Source of the DNA: Planctomycetota bacterium
GTDB taxonomy: Bacteria > Planctomycetota > Planctomycetia > Planctomycetales > Planctomycetaceae
Assembly (NCBI GenBank): GCA_003671275.1
Contig: QWPB01000169.1
Location: 1 to 41,213, forward strand
Reading direction: 5' to 3'
Length of the DNA: 41,213 nt
This document shows, piece by piece, positions 9,346 to 29,311 of this stretch (position 1 is the stretch's first letter; every line of letters begins with the position of its first letter). The notes beneath the pieces are model-generated. The model did no database searches and was not told the origin of the DNA. It worked only from the letters and a program-made list of their open reading frames with translations. Position numbers and translations under genes: made by a program.

Positions 9346-9672
9346 TTACCACTTGGGGGCTTCATTGGTCGGGCCGTCGCACGCAATGTCGCACTGGTTG
9401 TTGTCACAGTCGTCACTCGTATCGAGAAAATCTGATCCGAAGGTGTCTGCGGCCACACCGCCCTGGAACGACTTCTTCTTGCTGAAGCCGCTGAAGCTGT
9501 AGCACTGGTTCAGTTCTCCAATCGCATCGCCAACGTCGTTGAGTTCGCTGACGACAGCATGCTGGACCTCACTGAGGCCGACAATCAGTCCGATCACGAG
9601 GATCGTTGCAATCAGGACCAACTCGGCCGAGACCACGAAACCGCAATCGTCATTCCAAAGAGCTTTCACCAT
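9346..9672 (-). CDS. Flp-pilin-like small membrane or secreted protein
   Basis: The 108-residue protein begins with a charged leader (MVKALWNDDCG), then one long hydrophobic helix FVVSAELVLIATILVIGLIVGL (about 12-33) with a Glu near its start, as in type IVb (Flp) pilins. A soluble tail with six cysteines follows (Cys10 in the leader, others at about 57-100). The tail ends in an acidic Cys-rich segment DTSDDCDNNQCDIACDG. It probably sits in the inner membrane or is assembled into a surface filament. The ATG at 9672 has gggag 8 bases upstream. No other pilus genes are adjacent, so it may be an orphan pilin. Confidence 0.7.
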   Translation of the reverse strand: MVKALWNDDCGFVVSAELVLIATILVIGLIVGLSEVQHAVVSELNDVGDAIGELNQCYSFSGFSKKKSFQGGVAADTFGSDFLDTSDDCDNNQCDIACDGPTNEAPKW

Positions 9673-10217
9673 TTTTTCATCTCCCTGCGCAGTGCAACAC
9701 ACATTGTCAGCTGGGTGGGACGTCATTGAGCGTGACGCTGGAACCTGGGGGGGTTCCGCCGAAGCCGACATACATCCGGAAGCCAATCTCGCGGGGTAGA
9801 CATTGCTGGGGAGATGAGGGGCCCCGCGTGGCTGCCGGGACTGTTTCGCATTCACCGTGCCGCAGACTTAAAAATCGCCGATCTGTGCGGTTTGGCTGGA
9901 TTTTGTCGGCCCCCCTCTATCACAGGGACCGTTTCCGCCTGGAATTCTTGGCGCGACTTAACATCAACTTGTTCACGCTTCTTGTCACTGCTTGCAGCGG
10001 TGCGATTAGTCGGCCTGTGATTGCTGTAGGAATTCCCTGATCCGAAAACTAAGGATAATCACCCAGATCATCGGGACCGAATACGTCCTCCTGACCGGCT
10101 AAGTCGAACATTGGCTTGACAGTGGTTATCCGTGGTTCAATCATGGACGTAGCTCATTACGCCCATTGCTGTGCCTTGGGAACGTTACTCGGTGGTTTTG
10201 TTGTTGGATCTCCCGTC
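9673..10217. other. Divergent intergenic region
   Basis: About 540 bases separate the minus-strand pilin-like gene from the plus-strand repeat/cyclophilin gene. Apart from the weak sigma54-like motif at 9848-9861, I see no RNA gene, repeat or convincing sigma70 promoter. The right-hand part is open in the frame of the downstream gene from 10116, which is why that gene's start is uncertain. Confidence 0.5.
9848..9861 (-). promoter_or_regulatory. Possible sigma54 -24/-12 promoter
   Basis: On the minus strand the sequence ggcacggtgaatgc has GG and GC exactly 10 bases apart and the core GGCACG. It departs from consensus at the T before GG and at one base of TTGC. It would start a transcript near 9836, about 160 bases ahead of the pilin-like gene. 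The long leader and two mismatches make this only a candidate. Confidence 0.25.
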
Positions 10218-12275
10218 ATGCTCCCAGCGTTTCTCGACCGGTTCTTTTTCGGTGGTTCCGTGCGTCGGCAACCCAGGTCGCGATTCCGGCACGCCGTCAT
10301 TGCGATGGAATCCCGGACACTGCTGGCGGGTAACGTCACGGCGGAAGTGGTGGATGGGGTATTGAATATCCAGGGTGACGACGACGCGAATGAGATTCAG
10401 GTTCGCGAGACGGTCGATGGTGTGATCGTCCTAGGGCTGAACGGGACCACGATCAACGGCGAGTCCGATCCGTTCATCGCATTCGAATCCGATCTGGAAG
10501 CCCATGGCTCAATCAACATCGAGCTGAACGCCGGAGATGACAATGTGCAGGTCGAAGGGTTCGATCTCCACGGCTCGCTGATTGTCCGGGGCGGGCGCGG
10601 CGATGATCGACTGGGGATCACCGCCATGACGATCGATCAGCGAGTCACGTTCATCGGAGGGGCTGGCGATGACATCCTCTACGCGGAAGGTTCCGAGTTC
10701 ACCCACCTGGGAGCCTGGATGGGTGAGGGGGACGACCTGGTCGCTCTCGTCGATAGCGAGATCACGGGAAGTTTGCTGATGACGGCACGTCGCGGCGACG
10801 ATCGACTGTCACTGGATAACACGATCGTCGAGCGGCGGATGACAGCCCTGATGAATCGCGGAAATGATGATGTCCTGTTGACGAATGGAACCGAGACCCG
10901 ACACGTCTTCATCTGGGGTGGATGGGGCGATGATGTGGTCCAGGTCGAGGACTCCAGCACCTCGCGATCATTCGTTGCTCGTATGTGGTATGGGGATGAT
11001 GCCATCGCCTTCGTCGGAGAGGTGGATGTCGAGAATCGGCTTGTGGTTCGGGGACGTGGCCGGAACGACAGCTTTGAAGAGGGTACCGGGTCACTGCCTG
11101 AAAACTCCCGAACCATCGGAATGGAAGACGATACCGTCCCCGAGGTTGTAGCGGACCGCATCACGGCACTGGAAGAAGCTGTCAACGATGCCCAGTCTGA
11201 AATATTGCCCCTGGTGCTGACGATCACGGGAACCGGGTTGGTTGAATCCAGCGGAGTTCAGATTTCGCCTGAAGTGAATGTCACCGTCCATGTGACAGGT
11301 CTGGCGGGGACCACGGTCCTGCTCGATATTGATGGCGACGGATTCGACGATGGCACCGCCGTGGTCGGGACGAACGGAACGGTGACTCTTCCGGCAACGC
11401 TGACACATACCACCAGCAATCGAGGACTGAATACCCTTCGGGTCCAGCAGAGTCAAGGGGGCACCCCCGTCGGAGCAATTGAATCGGCCCGGGTTCATTT
11501 TGCCATTGGGCAGGTGGTGCGGATGGCCACCACCCAGGGGAATGTGGATATCGAACTGCTCGAAACCGATGCCCCCAATACAGTGGCGAACTTCCTGGAT
11601 TACCTGGCTCGCTACGAGGGGTCAATTATTCATCGCTCGATCGACAACTTTGTGATTCAGGGCGGTGGCTACGATCTGGTCCCGCCGCTGGAAACGATCG
11701 TCAAGAACGTCACGACACTTAATACGGAGTTTCTGGCCAGCAATTCCAACCTGCGGGGAACCTTGTCGATGGCTTTGCCCGCGGGGAACCCCAACGGCGG
11801 AACCAGCGAATGGTTCATCAACACAGTCGATAATTCCAATCTGGATGCTGCCCAGCACATGGTGTTTGGCCGCGTGATCGGCGACGGCATGACCGTGGTC
11901 GATGCCATCAACGATCTGTCGTCGTTCAATATCGTGGCCGCATCGGAGATCACCGCCCTCACCGATGTTCCGCTCGCCGGCGGATACACGGCGTTTACAC
12001 AGACACTGACCGGAACGGTCAATGCGACCCTGGGGAACGCCACGATCACCGGAACTGGAACACAGTTCCTGACGGAACTAACCCCGGGAGCCAACTTCCG
12101 TGTCGGAGGCGTGACCTACACGATCGGTAGCATCGAGTCGGACACGTCACTCACCCTCACCTTCGGGAACACAGCCACCGCCACCGTTGCCGGTCAGAGC
12201 GTGCAGGTCAATGCCGCTCCGACGGAAGCCCAGTATGTCCGGGTCAATTCCGTAACGACCATTGTGAATGGCTGA
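10218..12275 (+). CDS. Surface protein: LEPR-XLL-like N-terminus, 22-residue GDD repeats, cyclophilin domain
   Basis: This 685-residue protein is a mosaic. Residues 1-38 form a basic leader ending in MESRTLLAG, a LEPR-XLL-like motif of planctomycete surface proteins. Residues about 106-285 hold nine units of 22 residues, most with GDD (RGGRGDDRL, GGAGDDILY, GGWGDDVVQ), which suggests a beta-roll or beta-helix that may bind calcium. Residues about 433-566 are a cyclophilin-type peptidyl-prolyl isomerase: HRSIDNFVIQGG carries the catalytic Arg, then GTLSMAL and EWFINT. The last 75 residues resemble a TGTGTQFLTEL beta-module seen in secreted proteins. It probably acts outside the cell as a folding factor or adhesin. 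The start at 10218 puts the LEPR-like motif at its usual distance; 10143 (ATG) and 10116 (TTG) are alternatives. No clear ribosome site is seen. Confidence 0.8.
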   Translation: MLPAFLDRFFFGGSVRRQPRSRFRHAVIAMESRTLLAGNVTAEVVDGVLNIQGDDDANEIQVRETVDGVIVLGLNGTTINGESDPFIAFESDLEAHGSINIELNAGDDNVQVEGFDLHGSLIVRGGRGDDRLGITAMTIDQRVTFIGGAGDDILYAEGSEFTHLGAWMGEGDDLVALVDSEITGSLLMTARRGDDRLSLDNTIVERRMTALMNRGNDDVLLTNGTETRHVFIWGGWGDDVVQVEDSSTSRSFVARMWYGDDAIAFVGEVDVENRLVVRGRGRNDSFEEGTGSLPENSRTIGMEDDTVPEVVADRITALEEAVNDAQSEILPLVLTITGTGLVESSGVQISPEVNVTVHVTGLAGTTVLLDIDGDGFDDGTAVVGTNGTVTLPATLTHTTSNRGLNTLRVQQSQGGTPVGAIESARVHFAIGQVVRMATTQGNVDIELLETDAPNTVANFLDYLARYEGSIIHRSIDNFVIQGGGYDLVPPLETIVKNVTTLNTEFLASNSNLRGTLSMALPAGNPNGGTSEWFINTVDNSNLDAAQHMVFGRVIGDGMTVVDAINDLSSFNIVAASEITALTDVPLAGGYTAFTQTLTGTVNATLGNATITGTGTQFLTELTPGANFRVGGVTYTIGSIESDTSLTLTFGNTATATVAGQSVQVNAAPTEAQYVRVNSVTTIVNG

Positions 12276-23453: not shown

Positions 23454-23744
23454 TCACGCCTCAATTTCGGTCGGAGCGGACTTGGGGGGCTCAAACTTGG
23501 GGGCCGACAACCGATCTTCATCGAGATTGGCTAGTGGTTCCGGGCGGCGGGCAGACGGTTTTGGCGTGTAGGCCGACGGGGAAGGAGTCGGACGGGTGAG
23601 TTCGTCCTGGAACCCACTGATTCCCTTCTTGAACTCGGCAAACCCTTTGCCCAGATTCTTGGCGACATCCGGCAGTTTGCTGCCAAACAGCAAAAGCCCG
23701 ATCATTCCCAGAACGAACAGTTCACCGACATTCGCACCAAACAT
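23454..23744 (-). CDS. tatA: Sec-independent protein translocase TatA/TatE
   Basis: This 96-residue protein has a short N-terminal membrane helix (ELFVLGMIGLLLF, about 8-20), the hinge FGSKLPD and an amphipathic helix (VAKNLGKGFAEFKKGISGF). A Pro-rich acidic tail ends it. This is the TatA family plan. TatA oligomers form the pore that lets folded proteins with twin-arginine signals cross the cytoplasmic membrane. TatB and TatC are not nearby. The ATG at 23744 has aggagag about 5 bases upstream; the frame is open to 23795. It lies 165 bases downstream of the SecA-like gene, so two export genes are neighbours. Confidence 0.9.
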   Translation of the reverse strand: MFGANVGELFVLGMIGLLLFGSKLPDVAKNLGKGFAEFKKGISGFQDELTRPTPSPSAYTPKPSARRPEPLANLDEDRLSAPKFEPPKSAPTEIEA

Positions 23745-23909
23745 AACTCTCTCCTGCCCCCGGCACACCCCAGTGCCTGATTCCATCCTATCCATCCGGG
23801 GAAAAGTGTCAATTCGCGTCGACGGCGCCGCATCCGAGTCCGGGCCCCGATCGACGGGGATTTACGGATAATCCGTACGACGTGACTTTCCAGCGGAATT
23901 TGTTTTCCG

Positions 23910-25826
23910 TCAGTCCGTCAATTCAATAAACGGGTCCAGACGTAGCTTGTGGTATCGAAGGGTACGCTGTTTTTCGTGTTCCAGCTGCTGTCGTCGCTGG
24001 CGTGTGTGCATGCGTTCGATCGCCACCTGGGTCTTCAGGAATAATTTCTGCCACTGGGCGGTGACTTCACCATTGGGGCTGGGGCGGGCTTGAGTGCGAA
24101 TCGCCTGGCGTTTTTCCTCCGGAAGGGCCCGCAGCAGTTCGTCCTCCAGTGACAGGAAGAACTGAAATGTCCCCTGATCCCCCTGCCGGGCAGCGCGTCC
24201 GACCAACTGGCGATCAATCCGGGCCGAGGTGTGCATTTCCGTGGCAATCACATGCAGCCCCCCCGCATTGCGGACAGCAGGCTCCAATAGGATGTCCGTA
24301 CCGCGACCGGCCATATTGGTTGAGACCGTCACACGTCCCGCCAATCCGGCCTGGGCCACGATCTCGGCTTCTTCCGCATGGCGGTAGGCATTCAGCACTC
24401 GATGGACGACTCCCGCCCTGTCCAGAATCCGGCTGAGTCCCTGCGATGCCTCCACGGAGGGCGTGCCAATCAGCACCGACCGTCCCGCGGCAACCATCTC
24501 CTGAGCGGACAAGGCCACGGCCACCCACTTCGATTCCAAATCGGCAAAGACCCGCGTGGACAGTCCCTGGCGCAGGCAAGGGCGATTCGTCGGAATAATG
24601 ACCACCGGCAAGCGGTAGACTCGTTTTAATTCATGACGGGCAGCCCATCCGGTGCCGGTCATCCCCGCCAGATGTTCGTACCGGCGGAAGAACGACTGAA
24701 TCGTAATCCGGGCTGCCGAACCAGTCTGAGCGGATAGCGGAGCCCCTTCTTTGGTCTCGATCGCCTGGTGCAGGCCGTCCTGCCACTTTCGGCCTTCCAT
24801 CACGCGCCCCGTTCCCTCGTCGACAATGGCGATCTCGTCTTTATTCTCTTTCTCGGACTTGCGAACCACATAGTCGCGGTCCCGCTCGAAGAGATAGCGG
24901 GCCATCAGTGCCCGTTCGACATGTTCGTAAATCGTCTCGGTATCAATCCGATCCAGCACAATGGGCTTCGAGATCAACACGACCTTACGGCATCCGACAT
25001 CGGTCAAATCCAGCAGCCGCTTGCGAGTGTCGATCTCAAAATCACTTCCCACAATCAGCTGCCGGGCGGCCTGATCGGCCCAGCGGTACAGGCTTTCAAT
25101 TTCCGCCCGGTCTTTGGTCTCCAATCCGATTATCAGTGGCGTTTTGCCTTCGTCGATTAGGATACTGTCGGCTTCGTCAATCAGAGCAAAGTACAACTCG
25201 CGCTGGACCACGCCAGCCGCAGCCCCCAGCCGCTCGGAAGCCACCGTCACTCCCCCGCCAGGGTCGGCCCCGCGTTTGAGCCGATCGCGGAGAAAATCGA
25301 AACCAAACTGCGCTGCCGTGCCGTAGGTGATGTCCTTGGCATATTCGAGACCGCGTTCACTGTCTTCCATCTCTTCCAGAATACAGCCCGTCGACAGTCC
25401 CAGCTCACGAAACACCGGCCCCATCTCCTCCGCATCGCGCGAGGCCAAGTACTCGTTAGCCGTGAGCACATGACATCCCAGTCCTGGCAAGGCCCGCAGC
25501 GCGGCCGGCAAGACTGCGGTCAGCGTCTTTCCTTCACCGGTCTGCATCTCGGCAATATGTCCGTGAAAGAGTGAAATCCCCCCCATCACCTGCACTTCGA
25601 AATGCGTTTTCCCTAGAATCCGCTGCGATGCGGCCACCGCCACCGCATAAGTTTCTGGCAACAGCCGCTCGAGGCTTTCGCCGCCTTTGGCTCGCCAGCG
25701 CAGCTGGATGATCCGTTCCCGCAAGGTGGGGCCGCCCCGCCCCAGTTCCCCGCCGAGTTCCTTGACTCGGGTCAGAATTGAGCGGGCCTGTTGCCGCCAA
25801 CGCAAGAGTTGCCACAGAGACCACAT
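23910..25826 (-). CDS. SecA-like translocase ATPase lacking the SecA C-terminus
   Basis: This 638-residue protein has the SecA motor: MQTGEGKT (Walker A, 94-101), DEADSILIDE (217-226), MTGTG, and TNMAGRGTDI followed by QLVGRAARQGDQG. The peptide-binding domain is shortened. The protein ends soon after the second motor domain, at about the place where the helical wing, linker and Cys-rich zinc tail of housekeeping SecA (about 850-900 residues) would follow. That points to an accessory SecA paralogue with special cargo rather than the housekeeping enzyme. The ATG at 25826 places Walker A where E. coli SecA has it; the frame runs open to 25988. The tail after the motor is basic and helical (RMHTRQRRQQLEHEKQRTL). 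Confidence 0.85.
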   Translation of the reverse strand: MWSLWQLLRWRQQARSILTRVKELGGELGRGGPTLRERIIQLRWRAKGGESLERLLPETYAVAVAASQRILGKTHFEVQVMGGISLFHGHIAEMQTGEGKTLTAVLPAALRALPGLGCHVLTANEYLASRDAEEMGPVFRELGLSTGCILEEMEDSERGLEYAKDITYGTAAQFGFDFLRDRLKRGADPGGGVTVASERLGAAAGVVQRELYFALIDEADSILIDEGKTPLIIGLETKDRAEIESLYRWADQAARQLIVGSDFEIDTRKRLLDLTDVGCRKVVLISKPIVLDRIDTETIYEHVERALMARYLFERDRDYVVRKSEKENKDEIAIVDEGTGRVMEGRKWQDGLHQAIETKEGAPLSAQTGSAARITIQSFFRRYEHLAGMTGTGWAARHELKRVYRLPVVIIPTNRPCLRQGLSTRVFADLESKWVAVALSAQEMVAAGRSVLIGTPSVEASQGLSRILDRAGVVHRVLNAYRHAEEAEIVAQAGLAGRVTVSTNMAGRGTDILLEPAVRNAGGLHVIATEMHTSARIDRQLVGRAARQGDQGTFQFFLSLEDELLRALPEEKRQAIRTQARPSPNGEVTAQWQKLFLKTQVAIERMHTRQRRQQLEHEKQRTLRYHKLRLDPFIELTD

Positions 25827-26201
25827 CGTGGAAGATTCCCGTGTGGGCTGGGTTTGTGTCAATGCGGGAAAGTCGCCGATCGAAACCGAGAGCCAGGTTG
25901 TGGAACCGTTGGTTCTTTGCAGCTGAGTGGCTTGAGCCGCACATCGCGGCCCGGACATCACTTGGGATGCCGGGTAGCAGAGTAACAAGAGGCGACGGAG
26001 GAGTGGCCGAGGAGGCCGTCCCGTCCGTTACAACGGGTTTCGTCGTTACCTTCCAATTCATTCCAAAGGCCCACTTCGCGGGCCAACAGGGGGAGGCTCT
26101 CATCAGTCCGTTGAAAAACTTGGAATAGGCTTCCAGCCTGTCGATATTCTGAAGGGAGTGACAGACTGGAAGCCTATCCCACGGCGTTCTTCAGCTGGCT
26201 G
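25827..26201. other. Intergenic region with a palindromic repeat
   Basis: Apart from a possible N-terminal extension of the SecA-like frame up to 25988, this stretch holds only the hairpin repeat at 26122-26180. I see no small gene or RNA gene. Confidence 0.5.
26122..26180. repeat. 21-bp imperfect inverted repeat (REP-like, possible terminator)
   Basis: Positions 26122-26142 pair with 26160-26180 (19 of 21 bases) around a 17-base loop. The arm core is ataggcttccagcctgtc. On the minus strand the hairpin is followed by aaguuuuuc, so it could also end the transcript of the DUF1573 gene 22 bases upstream. The arm sequence and the adjoining gtccgttgaaaaac resemble, from memory, dispersed planctomycete intergenic repeats. 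Confidence 0.65.
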
Positions 26202-26693
26202 TCATACCACAAGGACAAGGTTTTGGAAGACGGCCACTACATGACCAAATCGCACGGGAATAATGAGTTTAGCGTTCATTGGTTCCGTCTCGATAGTCAA
26301 TATCGCGTCGGAGCCTTGCGAGTTGTCGGCCGTTTCAATTTCTATTCGGACACTCTGGCCGGGGTTAAGCAGAATATCTTTGACGTTACTAACGACCGTA
26401 CAATCACACGAGGAGCGTATCTGCTTGACCATCACGGGTTGCCGTCCGGAGTTCTTAACCCAGACCGCTCCGCGAACGCGACTTCGGGGGGCCAATGCAA
26501 GACCATCACTGGTAGCGACAATCGTTGTTCGCGCCGACAATCGATGGGCGGGCAGATCGATTCGGCAGAGATGAGTGACCACTGCGATGACCGCGATAAT
26601 GAATCCCGAAAGACCACACAGGATGAGCATCGCTGGAGATGCGTGAGTGGGGTCTCGCGGTTGTTTAAAAGTCGCTGACAATTTCGGCTCCAT
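26202..26693 (-). CDS. Membrane-anchored DUF1573-domain protein
   Basis: The 163-residue protein has one N-terminal membrane helix (AMLILCGLSGFIIAVIAVVTHL, about 21-42). An Ig-like DUF1573 domain follows, with the conserved block VKNSGRQPVMVKQIRSSCDCTVV. The SCDC pair (Cys96, Cys98) replaces the more usual SCGC. DUF1573 proteins are extracytoplasmic and common in Planctomycetes and Bacteroidetes; their role is unknown. The ATG at 26693 lies inside the end of the DUF1559 gene (29-base overlap) with agga 7 bases upstream, so it is translationally linked to that gene. It is the last gene of the cluster starting at 29245. Confidence 0.8.
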   Translation of the reverse strand: MEPKLSATFKQPRDPTHASPAMLILCGLSGFIIAVIAVVTHLCRIDLPAHRLSARTTIVATSDGLALAPRSRVRGAVWVKNSGRQPVMVKQIRSSCDCTVVSNVKDILLNPGQSVRIEIETADNSQGSDAILTIETEPMNAKLIIPVRFGHVVAVFQNLVLVV

Positions 26694-27675
26694 AACTGGT
26701 TCCTATGGCCCGCCACACATGCAGATCGATTTCGTCATGAACTTTGCGAACGGCTCCATCGCCCATGACACACGTCACGCTCCCGCGATGCCAACTTCGA
26801 GCGGAAATGGCTCCTTGTCCCAAACTGTGGTCGGCCCAATGATCTACGCAATCAGGAATTCGCGAGTTGGGGGCGAAGATATGATTATAGGAAGTCATTG
26901 ATTTGTCATTGGGCAACCACGAATACCCCAATATTGATGAATGGGATTCCTGCCCCGTCGCCAGTAAACAAGCAGAAATTGTTTCCGCGATAGTCTGCAG
27001 GTGACCATTCACGGCGAGTAAATCACGCGCGGGAGTGTAAATCTCGGGGTGACCATCGCCTATCAGCCGTTCACTGGCCAATACCGTTTGCGACATTCCA
27101 TCGGAGATGCTGGCCGGACCATCAATTGTCCACGGAGCCCAATAACCGTAGAGCTCGGCTTCCCCCGGTGGAGTTGGTCGTGGGCTCTGACCGTTCCGCC
27201 ACGAGGGGGAGCCGACGCTGGTTCCCTCATTCACTCGATAATTCGTACTACCCAAAGGACCATCGTCTGAAGGACAGCGGAAAATGGGGATATGAGTCCG
27301 CAATGCCTCTGGGTTTCGGGGAGACACGGGAGGCATCGGGTAAACTCGCTCCCATTCCAGTGAAAAGAATAGAGTTGACTGACCGAGTTGAGGAAGTATC
27401 TGAGTAATAAACGAGAATTCAGGTGGACCCGAGTTGTTTACTGGATTCCTGATGTACGGGGGAAACTTCCCCCGGGCAGTAGTATAGTCGTGAGTCGCAA
27501 GGCCGATTTGCCGCAAATGTGAGGCACATTGCTGCTGTCGAGCGGTCTCTCGCACTCCTTGGACTGCCGGGAGCAGCAATGCTCCCAGCAGCGAAACGAT
27601 GCCAATCGCCACAATGGACTCAACGAGGGTGAAACCGCTCACTTTCGTTCTCGGTTGTGTCCGGTGTTGCTTCAC
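26665..27675 (-). CDS. DUF1559 pseudopilin-like protein
   Basis: This 336-residue protein starts with a short basic leader and the type IV/type II pseudopilin signal GFTLVESIVAIGIVSLLGALLLPAVQGVRETARQ-like (prepilin cleavage before Phe, Glu at +5). The DUF1559 body follows and ends with the H-x9-DG motif HRGSVTCVMGDGAVRKV. Such proteins are very numerous in planctomycetes and are probably processed by prepilin peptidase and assembled or secreted at the membrane. The GTG at 27675 is chosen because ggagg stands 5 bases upstream and it leaves a 12-residue leader; an ATG at 27720 would lengthen the leader to 27. It follows the Cys-rich peptide gene by 49 bases. Confidence 0.88.
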   Translation of the reverse strand: MKQHRTQPRTKVSGFTLVESIVAIGIVSLLGALLLPAVQGVRETARQQQCASHLRQIGLATHDYTTARGKFPPYIRNPVNNSGPPEFSFITQILPQLGQSTLFFSLEWERVYPMPPVSPRNPEALRTHIPIFRCPSDDGPLGSTNYRVNEGTSVGSPSWRNGQSPRPTPPGEAELYGYWAPWTIDGPASISDGMSQTVLASERLIGDGHPEIYTPARDLLAVNGHLQTIAETISACLLATGQESHSSILGYSWLPNDKSMTSYNHIFAPNSRIPDCVDHWADHSLGQGAISARSWHRGSVTCVMGDGAVRKVHDEIDLHVWRAIGTSYGAEIVSDF

Positions 27676-27724
27676 ATCCCCCTCCCGTTCAGAGGCATAA
27701 GCACGATCAGCCGTGGGCATATCA

Positions 27725-28138
27725 TTACTCTGGTGCCCCACCGCCACCGCCTCCAGTCACAGTGGTGTAAGTGTAAAGCACCTGGCCAGCGTTATTTGAA
27801 CACCAGTTGGTAAAATCAACGGCTCCGGTGCCATTGAGACAATCCTGTTCCGAGTTGTACCGTTTGAGGTTCCCGCCGCAGTCGCCAAAGTTCTCTTCGC
27901 AGTCGAATCCCGATGCGGGATCGTCGCACTTCTGAGTAAACGGGCTAGGGGATTCGAAGCACTTTCCATAATACACCGTGTTATTCATGGTGATCTCCTG
28001 GCATGACTTACAGGGAGTCGTGCTGGGATAGTCCGTTGACTTTGTGTCTTGGAACATATCCCCGGCCCAGCCGAATTGGTAGATTGCCAAAGAGGTCAAC
28101 CCCATTGTGGCCCGGATTATCGTGGATCGTTTCAACAT
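27725..28138 (-). CDS. Small secreted cysteine-rich protein, Gly-rich tail
   Basis: I do not recognise a family for this 137-residue protein. It has a signal peptide (basic start MLKRSTIIRATMG, hydrophobic stretch, cleavage near residue 26, GWA-GD). The mature part has eight cysteines (PCKSC, GKC, QKC, FDC, GDC, QDC, NWC), an even number that suggests disulfide bonds after export. It ends in TVTGGGGGGAPE. The mature chain has few basic residues. The ATG at 28138 is preferred to the one at 28141 because gggagg then stands 6 bases upstream. It lies between the LolA-like and DUF1559 genes and may be a partner or cargo of either. Confidence 0.75.
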   Translation of the reverse strand: MLKRSTIIRATMGLTSLAIYQFGWAGDMFQDTKSTDYPSTTPCKSCQEITMNNTVYYGKCFESPSPFTQKCDDPASGFDCEENFGDCGGNLKRYNSEQDCLNGTGAVDFTNWCSNNAGQVLYTYTTVTGGGGGGAPE

Positions 28139-28159
28139 CATCTGCCTCCCGATGAGAGT

Positions 28160-29245
28160 TCACGACTGACGCAGTTTCCAGAGTGAGTAGGCACTCATGA
28201 AAAACAACCCCAGTCCGCCCAAGGTCAGCCCAATCATGATTGGGCTGGGAAATCGCGGACGAGCATCGACCACGCTGATCGTACCCGGAGCCATTGTTTT
28301 GACGGACAGAGACCCCTTTTGGGCGCGGACCGTTTTGCGAGCGGCGTCACGCTGTGCGGCATCACGCTTGCGAACGGCCCTCATGGCAGCTTCATTGTCG
28401 AGGTCGATCAACTCGTACCCCTGCGGTAAAGCCGGACGGAACACGGTAGACGCGATGGGCTTGTTGATCGCGACCGATTGAACCCGCAATATCTGAAGTT
28501 CTTGGTTAACCTTGAATTGAATTTCCCAAGGAAACCAGGCCCCTTCTGCTTCGACTCGCTGAAACTTCAGCACTTCCGTTTGTCGATATGAAAAATCCTT
28601 GAGCCGTCGAGGAAGATGACCGTGTTGCGGATCCAGCCAGACCGTCATCGGTAAATCGTTCTGAGCCGCGATTCCAGGGTAGGGAAAGTCGATTCGCCAA
28701 CAAGCGTGTTCGCCGACTTGATCCGGGCCGACGAGCCGCGCGCGGTCCGTCGACAAGAGTGTGACCAGATTGAGGTGCGGCAGCTGTAATCGCCCAGCTG
28801 TGAAGTAATGCCCAAGAATTTGGCCTGGAGTGAAACAGGATTTTAAATTGTCGGCATACTCCGCAGGATCATCTTGAAAGAATAAGCGTCGCTTGCGGTG
28901 ATCCAGATTCCAGACATGTGCTCCATCATAAGACTCCACGGAGCCTGGAAATTGATTCCCGCTCGGAAAGATGGCGGAAAAATGCTCGATGCCAGATTTC
29001 CGACCTTCAACGGCCCAGTGGGATGTTGTGAGGCGGGGATAGCTCCGCCCCGGTTCTAATTCCGGGGGAAGTGGGTATTCGATCTCATACCGACAGTCGA
29101 TCGACTGTATCGCCTCGAACGACTGCTTGTATTGAGTAACGATCTGCTCCAGAGACTCTTCGACTGCCCACGAAGAGGATGCTCCAGAGCATGTCAGAAA
29201 CAGGATAACACCTGCCATAACTACACTTCGGGAAGATCGCAACAC
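28160..29245 (-). CDS. Secreted LolA/MucB-like protein with C-terminal membrane anchor
   Basis: This 361-residue protein has a signal peptide (cleavage near residue 27, SWA-VE). A domain follows of the kind seen in outer-membrane lipoprotein carrier-like (LolA/RseB fold) proteins: YKQSFEAIQSIDCRYEIEY, ESYDGAHVWNLD, CWRIDFPYPG, and TVWLDPQHGHLPRRLKDF. A basic linker and a C-terminal membrane helix (about 335-356) end it. It may bind lipid or lipoprotein at the outer face of the membrane, but the assignment rests on fold-like features. The GTG at 29245 has ggagg 9 bases upstream and a promoter at 29283-29311; an upstream TTG at 29269 would fall almost at the transcript start. First gene of a four-gene unit. 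Confidence 0.7.
   Translation of the reverse strand: MLRSSRSVVMAGVILFLTCSGASSSWAVEESLEQIVTQYKQSFEAIQSIDCRYEIEYPLPPELEPGRSYPRLTTSHWAVEGRKSGIEHFSAIFPSGNQFPGSVESYDGAHVWNLDHRKRRLFFQDDPAEYADNLKSCFTPGQILGHYFTAGRLQLPHLNLVTLLSTDRARLVGPDQVGEHACWRIDFPYPGIAAQNDLPMTVWLDPQHGHLPRRLKDFSYRQTEVLKFQRVEAEGAWFPWEIQFKVNQELQILRVQSVAINKPIASTVFRPALPQGYELIDLDNEAAMRAVRKRDAAQRDAARKTVRAQKGSLSVKTMAPGTISVVDARPRFPSPIMIGLTLGGLGLFFMSAYSLWKLRQS
28226..28247. repeat. 22-bp perfect palindrome inside a coding region
   Basis: Both strands read identically over 22 bases centred on catg, with arms cagcccaatca. It lies in the codons for SPIMIGL near the membrane anchor of the LolA-like protein. No function is assigned. A perfect half-site of 11 bases is unlikely by chance in a window this size. 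Confidence 0.7.
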
Positions 29246-29282
29246 GATGCGGCACCTCCAAATCAACAATCAATATTTCCGC

Positions 29283-29311
29283 ATCTTACATACACACACA
29301 CGGTATGTCAA
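29283..29311 (-). promoter_or_regulatory. Sigma70-type promoter of the LolA-like/DUF1559 unit
   Basis: On the minus strand TTGACA (29306-29311, perfect) and TAAGAT (29283-29288, 4 of 6) are 17 bases apart. The spacer contains a GTGTGTGTGT run. Transcription would begin near 29276, about 30 bases before the GTG start at 29245. No other strong promoter is seen before the later genes of the unit. Confidence 0.7.

Follow-up and report, generated by a model that had tools for sequence, protein, structure and literature searches.

A recurrent accessory gene cassette of planctomycetes with a cysteine-rich exported peptide as its proposed cargo

Do four adjacent genes for exported or membrane proteins on a contig of a Planctomycetota bacterium (QWPB01000169.1 of assembly GCA_003671275.1, Planctomycetaceae) belong together, and if so, what do they handle? 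The whole contig stretch of 41,213 nt, referred to as the window, carries them as a cassette encoding a LolA-like protein, a Cys-rich peptide precursor, a DUF1559 pseudopilin, and a DUF1573 protein (Table 1). The original prediction had considered these genes one undescribed unit, suggestive of a surface assembly or secretion device. Comparison with related genomes supports the four genes as one recurrent unit in planctomycetes; relatives were checked for separation of the genes and did not show it, and the suggested device is no more than plausible. With about even confidence, we regard the cassette as a recurrent accessory planctomycete system in which the Cys-rich peptide is the cargo that is matured and presented, by a mechanism that we infer. 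The central position given to the peptide, that of a likely cargo, rests on comparative evidence that includes C39 peptide-processing domains added to the cassette in relatives.

The gene order LolA>Cys>DUF1559>DUF1573, which the original prediction had proposed to search for in other planctomycetes, was observed at about ten loci in nine genomes (L022, L058, L067, L068, L073, L080, L098, L105, and L107, with L105 counted on a weak, partial LolA match). In case of L059, L070, and L075 the order is LolA>Cys>DUF1573>DUF1559, and other orders occur at L018, L065, L066, L093, L094, L095, L116, L126, and L132. A profile search with the LolA-like protein across 170 genomes of the same family gave matches in 53; cassettes of any order amount to more than 30 loci in three families, namely Planctomycetaceae, Isosphaeraceae (Singulisphaera), and Pirellulaceae. 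Among culturable planctomycetes, Singulisphaera sp. GP187 possesses a cassette. The second cassette of the source genome (L018:9780-14014 with L064:5216-5715) reads LolA>Cys>LolA>DUF1573>DUF1559, its first LolA-like gene being split across the ends of contigs C123 and C48. About 15 cassettes, each with a different peptide, are present in a single metagenome-assembled genome (G023).

Same-strand neighbours within 3 kb of 40 non-seed LolA-like loci included a DUF1559 gene of the cassette kind in 15 cases, a DUF1573 gene in 11, and a Cys-rich peptide gene in 15, two of which (L061 and L085) look spurious; all three partners were found at nine of the 40 loci. On the opposite strand, the corresponding counts were 1, 0, and 1. 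The probability of such co-location by chance is about 1e-18 for DUF1573 (density about 0.9 per Mb) and about 1e-13 for DUF1559, values that are indicative, since some of the 40 loci share a genome and are not fully independent. Of 20 DUF1573 loci drawn from 20 other genomes regardless of their neighbours, 19 were devoid of a Cys-rich peptide, by which a general link between DUF1573 and such peptides was rejected; the remaining one proved to be a genuine cassette, which includes C39 and part of a pseudopilin.

The cassette peptides are hypervariable around conserved cysteines and nearly always adjoin a C-terminally anchored LolA-fold protein. Alignment of the window peptide with 11 peptides from other cassettes revealed seven invariant Cys columns. 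The window peptide is without a match in Pfam or NCBIfam, and for ten peptides checked no family was found in either. The structure model of the peptide was too weak for use (predicted local distance difference test, pLDDT, of 58.7). Signal peptidase would set the window peptide free.

A Peptidase_C39 domain accompanies 15 of the 45 compared peptides. It is situated at the start of DUF1559 open reading frames (ORFs) of 525-554 aa in L068, L073, L098, and L107, is fused to DUF1573 in L112, L114, and L127 and, by a local model, also in L066, L160, L162, L168, L170, and L192, and is encoded by a free gene in L059, L147, and L156. Five of these cassette proteins (L112, L127, L147, L098, and L107) exceed the cut-off of Pfam PF03412. 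The C39 proteins consist of a signal peptide, the C39 domain, and a membrane helix, followed by a prepilin or lipoprotein-like start, and due to this layout the domain is predicted to lie in the periplasm.

Textbook double-glycine (GG) leaders were recognised in the peptides of seven such cassettes, e.g., LSELEQKSLYGG (L114), LSQSEKAKLLGG (L127), and LTNTEMQRVLGG (L156). A strict GG pattern was used, given that a loose one falsely matches inside signal peptides; it was found in 7 of 15 peptides with C39 versus 0 of 30 without (Fisher P 1.4e-4), and in 9 of 5600 shuffled peptides. The motif agrees with the rule for known C39 substrates, L-12, E-8, and V/L/I-4 ahead of GG (PMC6363468). Further peptides of C39 cassettes exhibit GA, or a GG that fits the pattern less well. 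In L162, L168, and L170, all with C39 fused to DUF1573, GA replaces GG ahead of the first cysteine, possibly a second type of cleavage site. In L059 and L147 the catalytic Cys of C39 has been lost, and the cognate peptides lack GG. Compared to the known double-glycine/C39 systems (PCAT/AMS transporters such as LahT and ComA), the cassettes share the C39 domain beside the precursor in 15 cases and the L-12/E-8/hydrophobic-4/GG rule in seven precursors, but their C39 domain is predicted to be periplasmic and is fused to a pseudopilin or to DUF1573 instead of an ATP-binding cassette (ABC) transporter, and their precursor carries an N-terminal export signal in addition. No ABC transporter was noticed among the genes read in neighbourhoods of about 4-20 kb, a reading made without an ABC model run over all loci.

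The LolA-like protein matches no Pfam or NCBIfam family, Pfam LolA included. Its AlphaFold2 model, built with 30 relatives (pLDDT 79.6), confirms at the level of predicted structure a half-barrel fold of the LolA/LolB/RseB type, and so bears out the label that the gene had been given from its sequence. The best Foldseek matches were LolA3, LolA, LolB, and a DUF1329 protein (1e-11 to 1e-8), and VIA-align superimposed the model on LolA3 and LolB structures with Z of about 15 and a root-mean-square deviation of about 4 Å over about 200 residues. RseB and MucB are structural neighbours as well (Z 9.2 and 7.7), LolA and LolB scoring higher than RseB. In contrast to the other proteins of this fold, with about 10% sequence identity, the cassette protein carries a transmembrane anchor at its C-terminus, occurs in multiple copies, is specific to the cassettes, and has no recognised LolCDE genes near it. 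The membrane anchor and the missing Pfam LolA match also distinguish it from a classical soluble LolA carrier. Peptide similarity tracks the similarity of the LolA-like proteins (Mantel r 0.75; partial r 0.51 given DUF1573), and the protein looks like a partner of the cassette peptide rather than a general lipid carrier. Three LolA-like genes in tandem, one match having two in-frame TGA codons, occur at L085:3914-7311 with the other cassette parts absent. For the extra gene of the Singulisphaera cassettes (L114:2079-3074) and for L147:5861-6898, homology to the LolA-like family was considered and dropped, as profile comparison did not show it.

The DUF1559 protein of the window matches PF07596 with 2.6e-30 (106.8 bits, cut-off 23.3) and belongs to a cassette subfamily with 32-41% identity to its cassette homologues. 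Its prepilin motif reaches 20.8 bits with PF07963 (2.8e-4), slightly below the cut-off of 21.2, and TIGR01710 matches N-terminally. DUF1559 proteins form a large family in planctomycetes, bear prepilin motifs, and often have exported genes at their flanks (PMC8567305); in these bacteria the family is one of the largest sets of paralogues, with 68 copies in Planctopirus limnophila (PMC10632474). The prepilin motif followed by the DUF1559 domain resembles pseudopilins of type II secretion and type IV pilus systems (GspG and relatives; the DUF1559/SBP_bac_10 expansion). Unlike GspG, the cassette pseudopilin is much larger and represents one particular DUF1559 subfamily paired with a peptide, and unlike those systems the cassettes contain no recognised pilus ATPase, secretin, or platform protein gene. 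A cluster of these three is missing from the window cassette; pilus ATPase, PilT-like, and platform-like genes are located elsewhere in the genome. At L020:8189-11746, a prepilin-peptidase-like gene is directly followed, on its own strand, by LolA-like and DUF1573 genes, an arrangement that hints at cooperation between the cassette and pilin processing.

The window DUF1573 protein matches PF07610 with 7e-8 (32.8 bits, cut-off 26.1), and its CxC motif is kept in all cassette DUF1573 proteins except one. The position of this motif corresponds to selenocysteine-Gly-Cys in selenoproteins (PMC9312934; PMC13188914), and the existence of these forms of the domain suggests a thiol-redox chemistry. Domain match and CxC motif are shared with DUF1573 proteins, Sec-containing forms included, from which the window copy differs in being short, with an N-terminal membrane segment; some relatives' copies are fused to C39. 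Its 163 aa compare to 266-382 aa in most cassette relatives. Because it is this short and its stop codon falls within the terminal part of a dispersed palindromic repeat, the protein was probably truncated by the repeat, which gave 54 BLAST matches across the genome, counting both orientations of single palindromes.

From these parts the following course can be proposed. The precursor would cross the inner membrane by Sec, and its leader would be cut by signal peptidase, alone in the window type and together with periplasmic C39 in the GG type. The CxC motif of DUF1573 would help to form or sort the peptide disulfides, and the dedicated partner, anchored in the membrane, would hold the peptide in its LolA-fold groove and hand it on to be presented at, or pushed to, the surface by the DUF1559 pseudopilin, itself matured by the prepilin peptidase of the cell. 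It is tempting to speculate further, with clearly less than even confidence, that this constitutes a new planctomycete export route, by which polymorphic disulfide-rich peptides are secreted in a manner coupled to the pseudopilin. Periplasmic C39 tethered to the pseudopilin would then trim GG precursors with no ABC transporter involved, each peptide would be carried by its own LolA-fold membrane protein, and the window would contain a stripped form that relies on signal peptidase only.

Several of the same observations could also be read as signs of antagonism. A small exported peptide that is hypervariable and occurs in up to about 15 different copies per genome, a bacteriocin-typical combination of GG leader and C39 in some cassettes, tight pairing and co-divergence of peptide and LolA-like protein, and a patchy, accessory distribution would suit a secreted bacteriocin-like antimicrobial or toxin, with the cassette-specific LolA-like membrane protein as immunity or holding partner. 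We consider this unlikely, however, as no ABC exporter was recognised in the cassettes, no toxin family was matched in Pfam, NCBIfam, or PADLOC, and pseudopilin and DUF1573, although conserved partners, are not known as bacteriocin parts. Anti-phage defence was rejected in the absence of a PADLOC match. Equally exported, Cys-rich, and planctomycete-specific are the YTV proteins, large Cys-rich proteins of the planctomycete wall (PMC8567305), and DUF1559 proteins were contained in Tuwongella membrane fractions (PMC8567305). Both facts would fit a role in envelope building, with the peptides as disulfide-cross-linked structural pieces of a protein-rich surface that are laid down by the pseudopilin. 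Yet the YTV proteins are large and of a different family, a separation drawn from their description in the literature, and such variability, patchiness, and cleavable GG leaders would be unexpected for structural proteins; this role appears distinctly improbable to us.

A sensing role, in which the LolA-fold protein would resemble the regulator RseB of the same fold and peptide or pseudopilin would be the signal read at the surface, is in our judgement very improbable. RseB and MucB are indeed among the structural neighbours and a sigma-factor-like gene is located just upstream of the peptide gene in L112, but both LolA and LolB outscore RseB, none of the cassettes had a recognised anti-sigma factor, and relatives of the L112 protein were found in one other locus only (L111), by which a common sigma factor regulator was discarded. 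An accidental gathering of exported genes would be conceivable for a family as abundant as DUF1559 (33-79 genes per genome), given the exported genes at its flanks (PMC8567305). The 40-locus test with its opposite-strand control and the repeated order in relatives reject this chance adjacency, and with the same four families on the same strand in many genera and a very low co-location probability we regard it as practically negligible.

The reading of the cassette as a peptide maturation and presentation system has to be weighed against several findings. About 23 of the 40 LolA-like matches stand without other cassette parts. DUF1559 is absent from L066, L093, L094, and most of the L156-L175 set, and because several cassettes lack it the pseudopilin can be dispensed with, at least in cis. 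L066 contains C39 without a recognisable GG, and the peptide is probably disulfide-rich, as inferred from its cysteine content alone. The window copy, moreover, may be decaying, because no C39 was found in the window with the local C39 model, its peptide precursor is devoid of a GG leader, and its DUF1573 is apparently truncated. On sequence grounds, the window cassette is accessory, since its GC content (54-55%) deviates from about 60% in the surroundings, a codon model trained on the genome leaves all four genes uncalled, and the flanking SNF2-helicase and SecA-like genes have other neighbours in a genome of the same genus. There they are situated on separate contigs, and no ancestral empty site could be cleanly drawn.

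In the window, all four minus-strand ORFs of the original prediction were recovered, including the overlap of exactly 29 bases between the DUF1559 and DUF1573 genes. A gap of 18 bases separates the LolA-like from the Cys-rich peptide gene, and the latter overlaps the DUF1559 gene by 23 bases, provided that this starts at GTG 27747. The LolA-like gene likely starts at GTG 29245, nine bases past GGAGG, the TTG at 29269 being disfavoured. Upstream of it, a promoter of good consensus had been proposed; the consensus-like site is present, but it is plausible only, because the number of promoter-like sites in the region (2) equals that expected from shuffled sequence (1.9).

Table 1. Positions of the cassette genes and associated features in the window.
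Feature	Position	Strand	Remarks
Sigma-70-like promoter TTGACA-17-TAAGAT (plausible)	29283..29311	-	upstream of LolA-like gene, 10/12 consensus matches
LolA-like gene	28160..29269	-	signal peptide, LolA-fold domain, C-terminal transmembrane helix
LolA/LolB-fold domain (residues 37-291)	28397..29161	-	AlphaFold2, Foldseek, VIA-align
C-terminal transmembrane anchor (residues 343-368) and basic tail	28166..28243	-	common to nearly all cassette LolA-like proteins
Cys-rich exported peptide precursor gene	27725..28141	-	138 aa, 8 Cys, without GG leader
DUF1559 pseudopilin gene	26665..27747	-	PF07596 and prepilin motif
Prepilin cleavage/methylation motif GFTLVE	27619..27636	-	in DUF1559 protein
DUF1573 gene	26202..26693	-	163 aa, N-terminal transmembrane segment
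CxC motif (SSCDCT) of DUF1573	26400..26408	-	C96 and C98 invariant
Dispersed palindromic repeat, about 80 bases	26122..26204	.	contains DUF1573 stop codon

Adjoining the cassette, a SecA-like ATPase of less than 700 aa is encoded at 23910-25988, a paralogue of the full-length SecA (about 1200 aa) in relatives; it may be an accessory SecA2-like protein and thereby a second unusual export gene. A TatA-like gene is located near it (23454-23795). Further away, a small protein with a single hydrophobic segment, the look of a Flp/TadE-type pilin, and a Cys-containing tail at its end is encoded at 9346-9855, and a large secreted repeat protein, seemingly with a C-terminal cyclophilin-type peptidyl-prolyl isomerase domain, at 10116-12275.

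In the literature on DUF1559, DUF1573, C39/double-glycine systems, and planctomycete peptides, no report of the cassette, of C39-pseudopilin fusions, or of the peptides was found, though subscription journals and preprints may hold some. To our knowledge, no function has been assigned to DUF1559 or DUF1573. The cassette gives both a defined set of partners and, in relatives, also an enzyme (C39) with a predictable GG-leader substrate, so that their function becomes directly testable. If the proposed reading is true, planctomycetes would possess a system for maturing and exporting peptides that works without an ABC transporter of its own, together with a large hidden pool of Cys-rich peptides.

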